NCBI RefSeq assembly: GCF_014395785.1
Contig: NZ_CP060713.1
Location: 214,501 to 278,500, forward strand
Reading direction: 5' to 3'
DNA: 64,000 nucleotides
Origin: Nocardioides mesophilus
Lineage (GTDB): Bacteria > Actinomycetota > Actinomycetes > Propionibacteriales > Nocardioidaceae
The notes under the pieces are model-generated. The model was not told the DNA's origin. It saw only the letters and a program-made list of their open reading frames with translations, and did not search any database. The translations under genes and the position numbers were made by a program. Positions 29,103 through 34,119 of this stretch are shown here, in pieces (positions within the stretch are counted from its first letter, which is position 1; each line of letters begins with the position of its first letter).

Positions 29103-29167
29103 ACCGGCGGGCAAAGGAGCCGGAAAAGCGGTGTCGCCGCCGGACCGGATGCCGCACGATGGCGCTC

Positions 29168-30136
29168 ATGCGCGCAGAGATCCGAGAGCTCGACGAGTCC
29201 GACCTCGAGGCCGCCGGGCAGTTGCTCGCGCAGCGGCACCGCCGGCACCGGGAGCGGCAGCCGCTGCTGTCCCCGCGGTTCGAGGACCCGGAGACCGCCA
29301 CCGAGGAGCTGCGCGGCGTGTGGGCGTCCAAGGACGCCTCCGGGACGGTCGCCCTGGCCGGCGGCGAGCTGGTCGGCTACCTCCTCGGCGTCCCCAAGGA
29401 CAGCCCCGTGTGGGGCCCGAACGTCTGGGTCGAGCCGGCCGGGCAGGCGGTCACCGGCGACCCGGAGCTGATGCGCGACTTGTACGCCGCCGCGGCGACC
29501 CGCTGGGTGGAGGAGGGCCGCACCGCCCAGTACGTCCTGGTCCCGGCCACCGACCCCGGCCTCGTCGCCGCCTGGTTCCGGCTCGGCTTCGGGCACCAGC
29601 AGACCCACGCCGTACGCCGCCCGCTGGACCGGGAGCCGGCGGTGGCGCCGGGGGTGCGGCTCCGCCTCGCGGTCCGCGACGACATCCCGGTGCTGGCCCG
29701 CCTCGACGTGGCGCTCCCGGAGCACCAGGGCCTCGCCCCGTGCTTCTCCTCCGGCGAGACCGGCACCGTGGAGGAGGCGGCCCAGGAGTGGGAGGAGGAC
29801 TGGGAGAACCCCGACTTCACCACCTACGTCGCCGAGCTCGACGGCACCGTGGTCGGCTCCGCCGTGCTCTGCTCGATCAGCCAGTCCAGCGGCAACACCA
29901 GCCTGATCCGCCCCGACGACTGCGGCTACTTCGCGTTCGCGGCGGTGATGCCGGAGGCCCGCGGCCGCGGGGTCGGCCGCGCGCTCGGCGAGCTCGGGCT
30001 GTCCTGGGCCGGCCGGGAGGGGTACGCCGTGGTGGCGACCGACTGGCGGCAGACCAACCTGCTCTCCTCGCGGGCCTGGCCGGCGCTGGGCTACGAGGAC
30101 ACCTTCTGGCGGCTGCACCGCACCGTGGGCTACTGA
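29168..30136 (+). CDS. tandem GNAT acetyltransferase
   Basis: A 322-residue protein with two GNAT-fold halves. The N-terminal half (about 1-165) lacks a clear acetyl-CoA loop; the C-terminal half has the binding motif AAVMPEARGRGVGRALGELG. It should transfer an acyl group from CoA to an amine, with unknown substrate. The ATG at 29168 is chosen because a CACGAT -10-like box lies 7 nt upstream; an in-frame ATG at 29159 is possible. Confidence 0.8.
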   Translation: MRAEIRELDESDLEAAGQLLAQRHRRHRERQPLLSPRFEDPETATEELRGVWASKDASGTVALAGGELVGYLLGVPKDSPVWGPNVWVEPAGQAVTGDPELMRDLYAAAATRWVEEGRTAQYVLVPATDPGLVAAWFRLGFGHQQTHAVRRPLDREPAVAPGVRLRLAVRDDIPVLARLDVALPEHQGLAPCFSSGETGTVEEAAQEWEEDWENPDFTTYVAELDGTVVGSAVLCSISQSSGNTSLIRPDDCGYFAFAAVMPEARGRGVGRALGELGLSWAGREGYAVVATDWRQTNLLSSRAWPALGYEDTFWRLHRTVGY

Positions 30137-30228
30137 CCCCTCCCCCGGACCGCTCCCGCCAGCGGGCCGCTGTCCGGATCGTGGAAACCGTGACCACATC
30201 GCGGTCAACGGTCGCTACTGTTCTCCTC

Positions 30229-30291
30229 GTGCAGCAGCAGACCTATTTCTTCGGCTACCCGCCCGGGGCACCGGCGCCGGCAGCCTTCTAG
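30229..30291 (+). CDS. aromatic attenuator leader peptide of the DAHP synthase gene
   Basis: A 20-residue open frame, MQQQTYFFGYPPGAPAPAAF. Four aromatic codons (Tyr, Phe, Phe, Tyr) occur within five codons at 30244-30258, and a final Phe precedes TAG. It begins with GTG 7 nt after a TACTGT box, so it is probably the first codon of the transcript. A hairpin terminator follows 20 nt after the stop, then the DAHP synthase gene. This is the architecture of ribosome-mediated attenuation: scarce Tyr/Phe would stall the ribosome and prevent the terminator. CCGGGGC at 30263-30269 can pair with part of the terminator's left arm, a weak candidate antiterminator. The peptide itself probably has no other function. 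Confidence 0.75.
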   Translation: MQQQTYFFGYPPGAPAPAAF

Positions 30292-30310
30292 GCCTGCTCG
30301 CAGCTCGACC

Positions 30311-30339
30311 AACGCCCCTGGCCCGCACAGGGGCGTTTT
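30311..30339 (+). terminator. attenuator terminator upstream of aroF
   Basis: AACGCCCCTG, loop GCCCGCA, CAGGGGCGTT, then TT. A perfect 10-bp stem whose right arm merges into a T4 tract, an unusually classical intrinsic terminator for this genome, placed 20 bp after the leader peptide and about 90 bp before the enzyme gene. Confidence 0.85.
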
Positions 30340-30427
30340 GCATGTCCGCCCCCCTGACCCCGAGGTCGGCGGCGCCAGGTGGCACCACCCGACAGCACCA
30401 CGAGAAGCAGGAACGAGAGGGATCACC

Positions 30428-31477
30428 ATGGTCGTCGTCATGACACCGGAGGCCACCGACGAGGACGTCGCGCGCGTCGTGGAGCGGGTCGAGGGCGTGG
30501 GCGGTGAGGCGTTCGTGAGCACCGGCGTGGTCCGCACCATCGTCGGCCTGGTCGGCGACATCGACTCCTTCCACGGGCTGAACCTGCGCAGCCTGCCCGG
30601 CGTCGGCGCCGTGCACCGGATCTCCGACCCGTACAAGCTGGTCAGCCGTCAGCACCACCCGGACCGCAGCACCGTCTGGGTCGGCGGGGTGCCGATCGGC
30701 CCGGACACCTTCACGTTCATCGCCGGCCCGTGCGCGGTGGAGTCGGCGGCGCAGACCCTCGAGGCCGCCGAGATGGCGAAGGCCGCCGGCGCCACGCTGA
30801 TGAGGGGCGGCGCCTACAAGCCCCGCACCTCGCCGTACGCCTTCCAGGGTCTGGGGGTGGCCGGCCTGGAGATCCTGTCCTCGGTGCGCGAGGCGACCGG
30901 GCTGCCGGTGGTCACCGAGGTCGTGGACGCCCGCGACGTGCCGGTGGTCGCCGAGCACGCGGACATGCTGCAGGTCGGCACCCGCAACATGGCCAACTTC
31001 GGGCTGCTCCAGGCGGTCGGCGAGTCCGGCCGGCCGGTGCTGCTCAAGCGCGGGATGACCGCGACCATCGAGGAGTGGCTGATGGCGGCGGAGTACATCG
31101 CCCAGCGCGGCAACCTCGACGTGGTGCTGTGCGAGCGCGGCATCCGGACCTTCGAGCCGGCCACCCGCAACACCCTCGACATCTCCGCGGTCCCGGTGGT
31201 GCAGGCCACCAGCCACCTGCCGATCATCGTCGACCCCTCGCACGCCGCCGGCCGCAAGGACCTGGTGGTGCCGCTGTCCCGGGCGGCGATCGCGGTCGGT
31301 GCCGACGGCGTCATCGTCGACGTGCACCCCGACCCGGAGACCGCGCTCTGCGACGGGCCGCAGGCGCTGCTCGGCAACGAGCTGCGTCTGCTCGCCCAGG
31401 CGGTGCGGCAGCTGCCGCCGGCGGTGGGCCGCGTGGACGCCGGCACGGTGGCCCGCGAGGCGGCCGGCGTCCGCTGA
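30428..31477 (+). CDS. aroF: 3-deoxy-7-phosphoheptulonate synthase, type I-beta with N-terminal regulatory domain
   Basis: A 349-residue DAHP synthase, the first enzyme of the shikimate pathway, joining phosphoenolpyruvate and erythrose 4-phosphate. Residues about 1-90 form a small ferredoxin-like domain as in Thermotoga DAHP synthase, where Tyr and Phe bind. The catalytic barrel has FIAGPCAVES, GATLMRGGAYKPRTSPYAFQG, QVGTRNMANF, LLKRGM and IIVDPSHAAGRKD. The start has an AGAGGG site. Transcription is predicted to depend on the upstream aromatic leader peptide, so the enzyme would be controlled both by attenuation and by feedback. Confidence 0.93.
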   Translation: MVVVMTPEATDEDVARVVERVEGVGGEAFVSTGVVRTIVGLVGDIDSFHGLNLRSLPGVGAVHRISDPYKLVSRQHHPDRSTVWVGGVPIGPDTFTFIAGPCAVESAAQTLEAAEMAKAAGATLMRGGAYKPRTSPYAFQGLGVAGLEILSSVREATGLPVVTEVVDARDVPVVAEHADMLQVGTRNMANFGLLQAVGESGRPVLLKRGMTATIEEWLMAAEYIAQRGNLDVVLCERGIRTFEPATRNTLDISAVPVVQATSHLPIIVDPSHAAGRKDLVVPLSRAAIAVGADGVIVDVHPDPETALCDGPQALLGNELRLLAQAVRQLPPAVGRVDAGTVAREAAGVR

Positions 31478-32549: not shown

Positions 32550-33923
32550 CTACGCCGAGGTGTGCGCGCTGCGGAGCATCTCGGCGACCAGGAACGCCAG
32601 CTCGAGTGACTGCACCCGATTGAGCCGCGGGTCGCAGACCGACTCGTAGCGGTTGTGCAGGTCGGCCTCGAGCAGGGCCTCGCCCCCGCCCACGCACTCG
32701 GTGACGTCGTCGCCGGTGAGCTCCACGTGGACGCCGCCGGGCCAGGTGCCCAGCGAGCGGTGCACGTCGAAGAAGCCCTGCACCTCGGCGATCACGTCGT
32801 CGAAGCGGCGGGTCTTGTAGCCCGAGGACGCCTCGAAGGTGTTGCCGTGCATGGGGTCGCACACCCAGGCCACCGAGATCCCGGCGGCGGTGACCTTCTC
32901 GACCAGGTTGGGCAGCGCGTCGCGGATCTTGCCCGCGCCCATCCGGGTGATGAAGGTCAGCCGACCCGGCTCGTTGTCGGGGTTGAGCTTGGCGGCCAGC
33001 GCCAGCGCGTCGTCGGGCGAGGTGGTCGGGCCGAGCTTCACGCCGATCGGGTTCCGGATCCGGGAGAGCAGCTCCACGTGGGCGCCGTCGAGCTGCCGGG
33101 TCCGCTCGCCGATCCACAGGAAGTGACTGGAGACGTCGTACGGCAGCTGGGTGCGCGAGTCGATCCGGGTCAGCGCGTGTTCGTACTCGAGGATCAGCGC
33201 TTCGTGGCTGGAGTGGAAGTCGACGCGGTGGAACTCGTCGGGGTCGGCCCCGATCGCCTGCATGAAGGTGAGCGCCCGGTCGATCTCGCCGGCGAGCTTC
33301 TCGTAGCGGCGTCCGACCGGCGACTCACGGACGAAGTCGGTGTTCCAGGTGTGCACCTGGCGCAGGTCGGCATAGCCGCCGGTGACGAACGCGCGCACCA
33401 GGTTGAGGGTCGCGGCCGAGGAGTTGTAGACGTCGACGAGCCGCTGCGGGTCCGGGATCCGCGACTCGGGGGTGAAGTCGAAGCCGTTGACCGCGTCGCC
33501 GCGGTAAGCCGGCAGCGTGACGCCGTCGCGGGTCTCGTCGTCGGAGGAGCGCGGTTTCGCGTACTGCCCGGCGAGCCGGCCCAGCTTCACCACCGGCACC
33601 GAGGCCGCGTAGGTCAGCACCACCGCCATCTGCAGCAGCACCCGGAGCTTGTTGCGGACGTTGTCGGCCGTGACGCCGTCGAAGGTCTCGGCGCAGTCCC
33701 CGCCCTGGAGCAGGAACGCCTCGCCGCGGGCGACCGCGGCCAGCTTGTCCTTGAGCTCGTCGCACTCGCCGGCGAAGACCAGCGGCGGGACCTTGCGGAG
33801 CTTGGCCACCGCGGTGTCCACCGCCGAGGTGTCGGGCCAGGTCGGCTGCTGCGCGGCCCCCATGGCGTGGAGGGTCGCCAGGTCCGGGACCTGGACGGCG
33901 GGCTGCGGACGCTGCTGACTCAC
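32550..33923 (-). CDS. 3-deoxy-7-phosphoheptulonate synthase, type II
   Basis: A 457-residue plant-like DAHP synthase equivalent to mycobacterial AroG. Motifs: PPLVFAGECDELKDKLA, FLLQGGDCAETFD, GRLAGQYAKPRSSD, HFLWIGERTRQLDGAHVE, NPIGVKLGP, WVCDPMHGNT. A TACCCT box ends 6 nt before the GTG at 33923, fixing the start. It catalyses the same reaction as the type I enzyme about 1.1 kb away, but no leader peptide is visible here, so the two isozymes are regulated differently. Confidence 0.92.
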   Translation of the reverse strand: MSQQRPQPAVQVPDLATLHAMGAAQQPTWPDTSAVDTAVAKLRKVPPLVFAGECDELKDKLAAVARGEAFLLQGGDCAETFDGVTADNVRNKLRVLLQMAVVLTYAASVPVVKLGRLAGQYAKPRSSDDETRDGVTLPAYRGDAVNGFDFTPESRIPDPQRLVDVYNSSAATLNLVRAFVTGGYADLRQVHTWNTDFVRESPVGRRYEKLAGEIDRALTFMQAIGADPDEFHRVDFHSSHEALILEYEHALTRIDSRTQLPYDVSSHFLWIGERTRQLDGAHVELLSRIRNPIGVKLGPTTSPDDALALAAKLNPDNEPGRLTFITRMGAGKIRDALPNLVEKVTAAGISVAWVCDPMHGNTFEASSGYKTRRFDDVIAEVQGFFDVHRSLGTWPGGVHVELTGDDVTECVGGGEALLEADLHNRYESVCDPRLNRVQSLELAFLVAEMLRSAHTSA

Positions 33924-34119
33924 CGTGCCAGGGTACGCCGGGGCGCGGCACCCCCTGCGCGGCGGCGGCTGCGCCGAGACGTCGCCGCCGGGACGCACAC
34001 TCCGGCGGAAGCGTCTACTCCGGCCCTCCGCGCAATCCCTGTTGGCATTCATCTCGCGCAGCAAAGCGGGCTGCCCATTCGACCCCACGTCTGCTGACCG
34101 CAGCAACGCGGCCCTCGTG

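Follow-up and report, generated by a model that had tools for sequence, protein, structure and literature searches.

The aroF gene of Nocardioides mesophilus, a member of the Nocardioidaceae with a genome of 4.49 Mb, codes for a type I-beta DAHP synthase and is preceded by what is very probably a ribosome-mediated transcription attenuator, tuning the enzyme to the supply of charged aromatic tRNAs. This is a conserved attenuator built on a known principle: its parts recur in relatives, two opposing stems (P1 and H2) covary, and the RNA switches folds in silico when a ribosome is modelled on the leader. Response to amino acids is what the arrangement predicts. Coordinates refer to the window, that is, the whole stretch of 64,000 nucleotides that was analysed, and all parts of the unit lie on its plus strand.

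The aroF leader and its RNA elements

The gene runs from an ATG at 30428 to 31477, after a hairpin, as the initial annotation had placed it. Its product matches the NCBIfam models NF006421/PRK08673 (465 bits) and TIGR01361 (383.7 bits), both above cut-off, models that we take to describe the type I-beta kind of DAHP synthase. The likely ribosome-binding site, to judge from its letters, is GAGAGGGA (30415–30422). A class II DAHP synthase (TIGR01358) is encoded 1.1 kb downstream of aroF on the other strand (32550–33935, minus strand); it looks leaderless, with TACCCT 6 nt before its GTG.

Upstream of aroF, a GTG at 30229 opens a frame of 20 codons and a TAG (63 nt, 30229–30291) for the peptide VQQQTYFFGYPPGAPAPAAF, in which codons 6 to 8 (TAT TTC TTC, 30244–30252) read Tyr-Phe-Phe. 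This start stands 7 nt after TACTGT (30216–30221), the -10 element of a probable leaderless promoter, with no Shine-Dalgarno-like sequence in between. The frame, its distance from the -10 box and its apparently leaderless character had all been pointed out beforehand, and the sequence agrees on each point. Judging from the -10 box, transcription would start at or beside the GTG. A -35-like gTGACc (30190–30195) sits 20 nt upstream of the -10 element, which is rather far, and a sigma-70 scan of 29800–30600 gave no match because of this poor -35 box. Four aromatics within six residues of a 20-residue peptide have a chance probability of 0.0014 when simulated with the aromatic codon frequency of the window; conservation among the sequences of relatives is the stronger argument for a leader.

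Of 245 Nocardioidaceae genomes, 102 gave an aroF match; removal of six weak partial matches left 96 upstream regions, one of which (L073) has only 5 nt before the contig end. These regions fall into 39 with a leader frame and a hairpin, 38 in which aroF itself looks leaderless and has no leader (TANNNT 4–9 nt before the aroF start, loci within L014–L098), and 19 others. The comparison of orthologous upstream regions suggested by the initial annotation finds Tyr and Phe codons, terminator and complementarity of CCGGGGC with GCCCC again in 39 of 96 cases. A lack of conservation of the leader codons, named there as refuting, is not what these relatives show. Ahead of the leader start, TANNNT is present at 6–7 nt in 38 of the 39 leaders by script, and in L041 by eye.

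The promoter carries a further element, the palindrome-like TCCGGATCGTG (30173–30183), a probable transcription-factor site that lies 56 nt ahead of the leader's GTG. The motif TCC[AG][CG]AT..TG occurs in 24 of the 96 regions, against 0.25 expected in shuffles. A looser pattern, sought in the last 120 nt, was found in 19 of 77 promoters, in each case at position -54 to -56 relative to the leaderless start, whether this start is that of a leader (9/39) or of aroF itself (10/38). It is probably an operator shared by both kinds of promoter, and it resembles only loosely the 15-bp palindrome of NdgR as given in the excerpted text of PMC4340878.

Between leader and gene lies the putative terminator (30311–30339), a hairpin at 30311–30337 with a T run at 30336–30339. 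Its stem, AACGCCCCTG at 30311–30320 against CAGGGGCGTT at 30328–30337, has 10 perfect pairs and a loop of 7, exactly the stem first described; the T-tract into which it was said to merge shrinks to TTTT. The hairpin folds in each of the 39 leaders, and the 8 nt following the last GGGC or GGGT contain 2–5 T. Such a short T run, of 4 in the window, explains why a stricter scan of 29800–30600, requiring 5 T in 8, found no terminator, and it leaves intrinsic termination uncertain. In a published scan, no more than 30 intrinsic terminators were predicted for a Nocardioides genome (PMC2965389, in the portion concerned).

The antiterminator would join GCCCGGGGC (30261–30269), within the leader frame, to GCCCCTGGC (30314–30322), which overlaps the 5' arm of the terminator. 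It contains the pairing noted earlier, between CCGGGGC (30263–30269) and GCCCC of the terminator arm, which can indeed form and recurs in relatives. The duplex is strong in all 39 leaders and differs between clades; its complementarity exceeds that of shuffles (mean z -2.7, with 32 of 35 below -1.64). Aligned columns of the antiterminator and P1 core showed no antiterminator covariation, and there was no effect of swapping partners within clades (982 of 5000). Scored jointly with the P1 core, the antiterminator pairs best in register, with 75% of cells paired against at most 45% when slid. The support for this duplex, drawn from sequence comparison, is conserved complementarity and difference between clades, not covariation.

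The remaining fold of the leader RNA opposes this duplex. P1 pairs the 5' end, from the start codon to the first aromatic codon (30229–30245), with the stop codon and the bases that follow it (30289–30306); H2 (30253–30285) is a hairpin that hides the antiterminator strand; the terminator completes the structure. P1 varies in sequence among species while its pairing is kept. In 35 of the 39 leaders, after removal of duplicates and short spacers, its own pairing reaches -13.9 kcal/mol against -11.5 (sd 0.42) for partners swapped within clades, with 0 of 5000 swaps as good, and the difference persists without the ACCTA:TAGGT core (-9.8 against -8.1; 0/5000). The swap test was needed because P1 is not alignable column by column: RNAalifold, run on the whole alignment, recovers H2 and the terminator and misses P1, and the aligned P1 core alone is 52–85% paired. 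For P1 core, H2 and terminator together, 19 two-sided compensatory cells (17 in the outer helix of H2, one in P1, one in the terminator) stand against a shuffle mean of 6.9 (0/500 shuffles), a test that favours H2 and the terminator, since their pairs were defined by the RNAalifold consensus on that very alignment. In register, 90% of cells are paired, a share that drops to 50% or less on sliding. Counting instead the pairs with two-sided change gives five, a less striking result (17/500 shuffles; 2–6 when slid).

Proposed stalling, sensor codons and alternative readings

The proposed sequence of events is as follows. Transcription would begin at or next to the GTG. With charged Tyr- and Phe-tRNA at hand, the ribosome would pass through the leader; P1 could then form between the 5' end and the stop region, and H2 within the stretch that codes for Pro-Gly. 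With both stems formed, the terminator would form too, switching aroF off. A ribosome stalled at the Tyr-Phe-Phe codons, 6 to 8, would instead cover the 5' strand of P1; GCCCGGGGC, left unpaired, could then bind the first terminator arm, letting transcription run into aroF.

The switch was modelled by masking the first 22–34 nt of the nascent RNA, as would a ribosome on the first aromatic codon. Masked, the RNA forms 6.1–9.9 antiterminator pairs (mean 8.0) in 39 of 39 leaders, against a mean of 2.1 unmasked. The gain is at least 2 pairs in 31 leaders; in the other eight, the unmasked nascent RNA already forms at least 5.6 antiterminator pairs and the gain is below 2. For the leader of the window, a scan of footprints allows the antiterminator with the ribosome on codons 2–8, nearly abolishes it at codon 9 and excludes it at codons 10–19. 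The same footprint model lets the antiterminator form once more when the ribosome rests on the stop codon, so that fast ribosome release must be assumed. In such modelling, antiterminator and terminator would exclude each other, and a ribosome on the sensor codons would favour the former.

The aromatic codons are placed accordingly in relatives: Tyr stands 16–18 nt before the antiterminator strand in 36 of the 39 leaders, and Phe 10–12 nt before it in 37. Since modelled footprints beyond codon 8–9 forbid the antiterminator, the conservation of aromatics ends where stalling would no longer help. For the 34 leaders that share the main register, the middle residue lies 14 nt ahead of the antiterminator and is Phe in 19, Leu in 6 and Trp in 3; the residue at 5 nt is His in 18 and Tyr in only 8. 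As in the trp/phe class, we have here a short frame, predicted to be translated, with codons for products of the pathway, Tyr and Phe being fixed in position.

Codon choice also depends on position. TAT had been singled out as rare, and it is: 37 long, high-GC3 frames of the window use TAT and TAC in a ratio of 9:269, and TTT and TTC in a ratio of 3:368. Among the leaders, the first sensor position has TAT in 27 against TAC in 4, the second TTC in 18 against TTT in 1, the third TTT in 23 against TTC in 9, and the fourth TAC in 8 of 8. Fisher tests on such choices count related leaders as independent and so overstate significance, as in part do the swap tests and column shuffles. In the rest of the leader codons, the third position is G or C in 84%. 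Rare-codon use therefore extends in relatives to TTT at the third position; in the leader of the window, both Phe codons are TTC. The TA of TAT may be kept in part by the pairing of P1 with the stop codon. To the trp/phe-type attenuation first proposed, which the relatives support at the level of sequence, the present analysis adds an anti-antiterminator made of two covarying stems, and rare codons placed at two particular positions of the sensor and not all along the leader.

Stalling might also be the work of the peptide, much as TnaC arrests the ribosome with tryptophan: a nascent Tyr-Phe-Phe followed by Pro-Gly would jam the ribosome when free aromatic amino acid is present. The leaders do share a short conserved peptide core with a Pro-Gly motif, and either route of stalling would have the same effect on the RNA. 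Yet the stretch after the aromatic residues is read in different frames while the RNA is kept (L019, L038 and L044 as compared with L010; also L034 and L055). Nearly the same RNA is read as PGAPEQ in L010 and, in another frame, as PGLPSS in L019; in L034 and L055, PAG replaces PG. An RNA that is kept despite the shift of frame speaks against a peptide acting by its own sequence. In other families, the aromatic clusters have different neighbours (FWFWYGDGP, WFGYFTGSG, YYWFTDG), which the sensing of codons fits better, and we consider peptide arrest improbable. Control of the terminator by a bound protein or ligand, in the way of a riboswitch, with leader translation merely adjusting it, would account for two conserved covarying stems and for a long P1 that closes the whole leader. 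We give it little credence: a search of 29800–30700 in Rfam (Trp leader, Phe leader, T-box and riboswitches) returned 0 matches at E up to 1, and a ligand pocket would not need the conserved aromatic codons or their conserved distance from the antiterminator.

Finally, the hairpin could belong to the GNAT-like gene upstream (29165–30136), which is co-directional and ends about 175 nt before it, and the short frame would then be an accident. This is hardly believable, as a GNAT-like homologue is the nearest recognised neighbour in 3 of the 39 leaders, the window included, while the place is taken elsewhere by an EamA-type transporter in 20 leaders, endonuclease IV in five and a PASTA-type kinase in three, the last eight having none of these four neighbours. 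Whatever the neighbour, aroF keeps its leader, stems and hairpin; the aromatic codons are conserved, and the RNA covaries. Attenuation through the sensing of aromatic codons is the reading retained below.

Distribution in the Nocardioidaceae and beyond

A covariance model made from the 39 leaders was run on the genome of the window and gave a single convincing copy (E 2e-18); the next best match has E 0.17, and matches from there on were taken as chance. In 240 genomes of the family it gives 38 hits below E 1e-6, of which 37 are leaders used to build it (the remaining two belong to genomes G241 and G242, outside these 240), and 29 weaker hits at E 1.7e-4 to 0.01. The sole new hit, in G016 (E 1.5e-7; L298, 320–1859), stands before a class II DAHP synthase, with a leader, VRMTRGFFFAYYRPGAPGSAV and a stop codon, and a hairpin of its own. 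To judge from the letters, it is as if the attenuator had moved there between unrelated enzymes of the same step. Upstream regions of class II DAHP synthase genes from other genomes, 53 in all, contain 0 with a leaderless aromatic leader. Five frames flagged in class II upstream regions were rejected: they lack a suitably spaced -10 box and resemble the ends of preceding genes.

The attenuator and the leaderless aroF are both found within genera g5 and g7. Among the 19 other regions of the family, L023 and L078 show, by eye, a hairpin near the same place with neither frame nor T run, as if the T run had been lost in the absence of a leader, in these two cases only. In G006, of the same genus as the window, aroF was matched in three pieces with no leader (L007–L009, L100), possibly a decaying gene or a poor assembly.

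In a class-wide sample, aroF was recognised at E up to 1e-60 in 110 of 344 genomes, 96 of them outside the Nocardioidaceae. From these, 93 upstream regions were fetched, three being omitted (two weak matches, one at a contig start); L198 (28 nt) and L239 (82 nt), cut by contig ends, are among the 93 and unable to show a leader. The comparison extends to these families: a leaderless frame with an aromatic cluster of another mix, such as FWFWY or WFGYF, is present in 57 of the 93 regions, across nine families (L194, L212 and L247, with fewer than three aromatics in six residues, were included by eye), and a terminator is detectable in 55 of the 57. Tyr, Phe and Trp are all present in 52 of these 57 leaders against 6 of 38 in the Nocardioidaceae, L041 being excluded from peptide counts for want of an in-frame stop near the usual place. 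Family f16 has the leader in 35 of 35 regions, with peptides such as MRTAFWFWYGDGP; it is probably Streptosporangiaceae, since genera of that family (L169, L177 and L179: Spongiactinospora, Thermocatellispora) show leaders of the same type, with related forms in L176 and L180. Family f19 has a leaderless aromatic leader in 0 of 20.

The folding contrast is weak outside the Nocardioidaceae: the gain reaches at least 2 pairs in 22 of 55 leaders, with on average 7.8 pairs in the free RNA, 9.7 in the stalled one and 7.5 in the stalled one with a shuffled spacer. In f16 the swap test of the antiterminator gives 0/3000, but a mean z of only -0.84, and P1 is absent at the post-stop position (2453 of 3000 swaps). 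There, the 5' end pairs with the last codons of the leader (z below -1.64 in 17 of 27; 242/5000 swaps), an exploratory result whose pairing partner was chosen post hoc. In the other outside families, the antiterminator swap gives 405/3000 and the post-stop P1 75/3000, with a mean z of -1.06. In the class-wide sample (families f15 and f16), 8 of 148 genomes gave no match to class II DAHP synthase when searched at E up to 1e-100; as all eight have aroF with its leader, the attenuated enzyme may be the sole DAHP synthase that they possess.

Taken together, these data allow a wider reading, which we offer tentatively, as possible rather than probable. An old actinobacterial OR gate for three aromatic tRNAs would act on DAHP synthase; P1 would bury the leaderless start, imposing a single reading so that no second ribosome reopens the decision; rare TAT and TTT codons, at the two positions where the footprint distance is right, would set the sensitivity; and the unit could be transferred whole to the class II enzyme, which is unrelated. 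DAHP synthase controls entry to the pathways of all aromatic amino acids and of many natural products of Actinobacteria, and a widespread Tyr, Phe and often Trp leader on this entry enzyme would add a layer of control that metabolic engineers could remove. Removal of aroR has already been carried out in Corynebacterium glutamicum (PMC7356990, in its excerpted text). The natural variants could also serve to test how an attenuator is set by codon choice and by where the ribosome stands.

Relation to known attenuators

Enterobacterial trpL and pheL have regulatory codons, competing hairpins and a terminator before a biosynthetic gene, and the aroF leader is like them in each of these respects. 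It differs in that the antiterminator strand lies inside the leader frame, before the stop codon, and in that the leader is apparently leaderless, its 5' end with the start codon being part of the opposing stem. In C. glutamicum, AroR is likewise an aromatic leader peptide gene before a DAHP synthase gene; the primary paper on AroR-aroF is that of Neshat et al. (2014). According to the portions of PMC11802643 that treat it, the AroR leader before aroF (cg1129) contains Phe-Tyr-Phe and acts by ribosome-mediated attenuation, and aroF transcription rises under Phe limitation and not under Tyr limitation; detection of AroR is reported in part of PMC4046766. Compared by description only, AroR is reported to respond to Phe and not Tyr, whereas here Tyr and Phe would be the most regular sensors, joined by Trp in other families. 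The enzymes would differ in kind as well, AroF of C. glutamicum being probably of type I-alpha and the one here of type I-beta.

Leaderless leaders are common in Actinobacteria (PMC8079986 and PMC9031893, as excerpted). Examples given there are trpL1, trpL2, leuL1, leuL2, ilvL, metL and thrL of Streptomyces lividans (PMC8079986) and the leaderless polycysteine frames of mycobacteria (Canestrari et al. 2020, as cited in passages of PMC9031893 and PMC9094748), which, as the aroF leader appears to do, start at the 5' end of the transcript before amino-acid genes. In the same portion of PMC8079986, eight S. lividans leaders are listed, none termed Tyr- or Phe-dependent and none before a DAHP synthase gene. 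The extract of a comparative study of Actinobacteria presents leader structures for Trp, Cys and Leu genes together with ileS T-boxes, and no other amino-acid pathways (PMC1262725), while that of PMC2965389 mentions Nocardioides solely for its few predicted terminators. A search of the open-licence literature yielded no description of the unit in Nocardioidaceae or Streptosporangiaceae. The principle, then, is known from AroR; mixed aromatic codons, an RNA architecture whose opposing stem takes in the apparently leaderless start, and a broad distribution seem to mark a variant of it, and these features look new.
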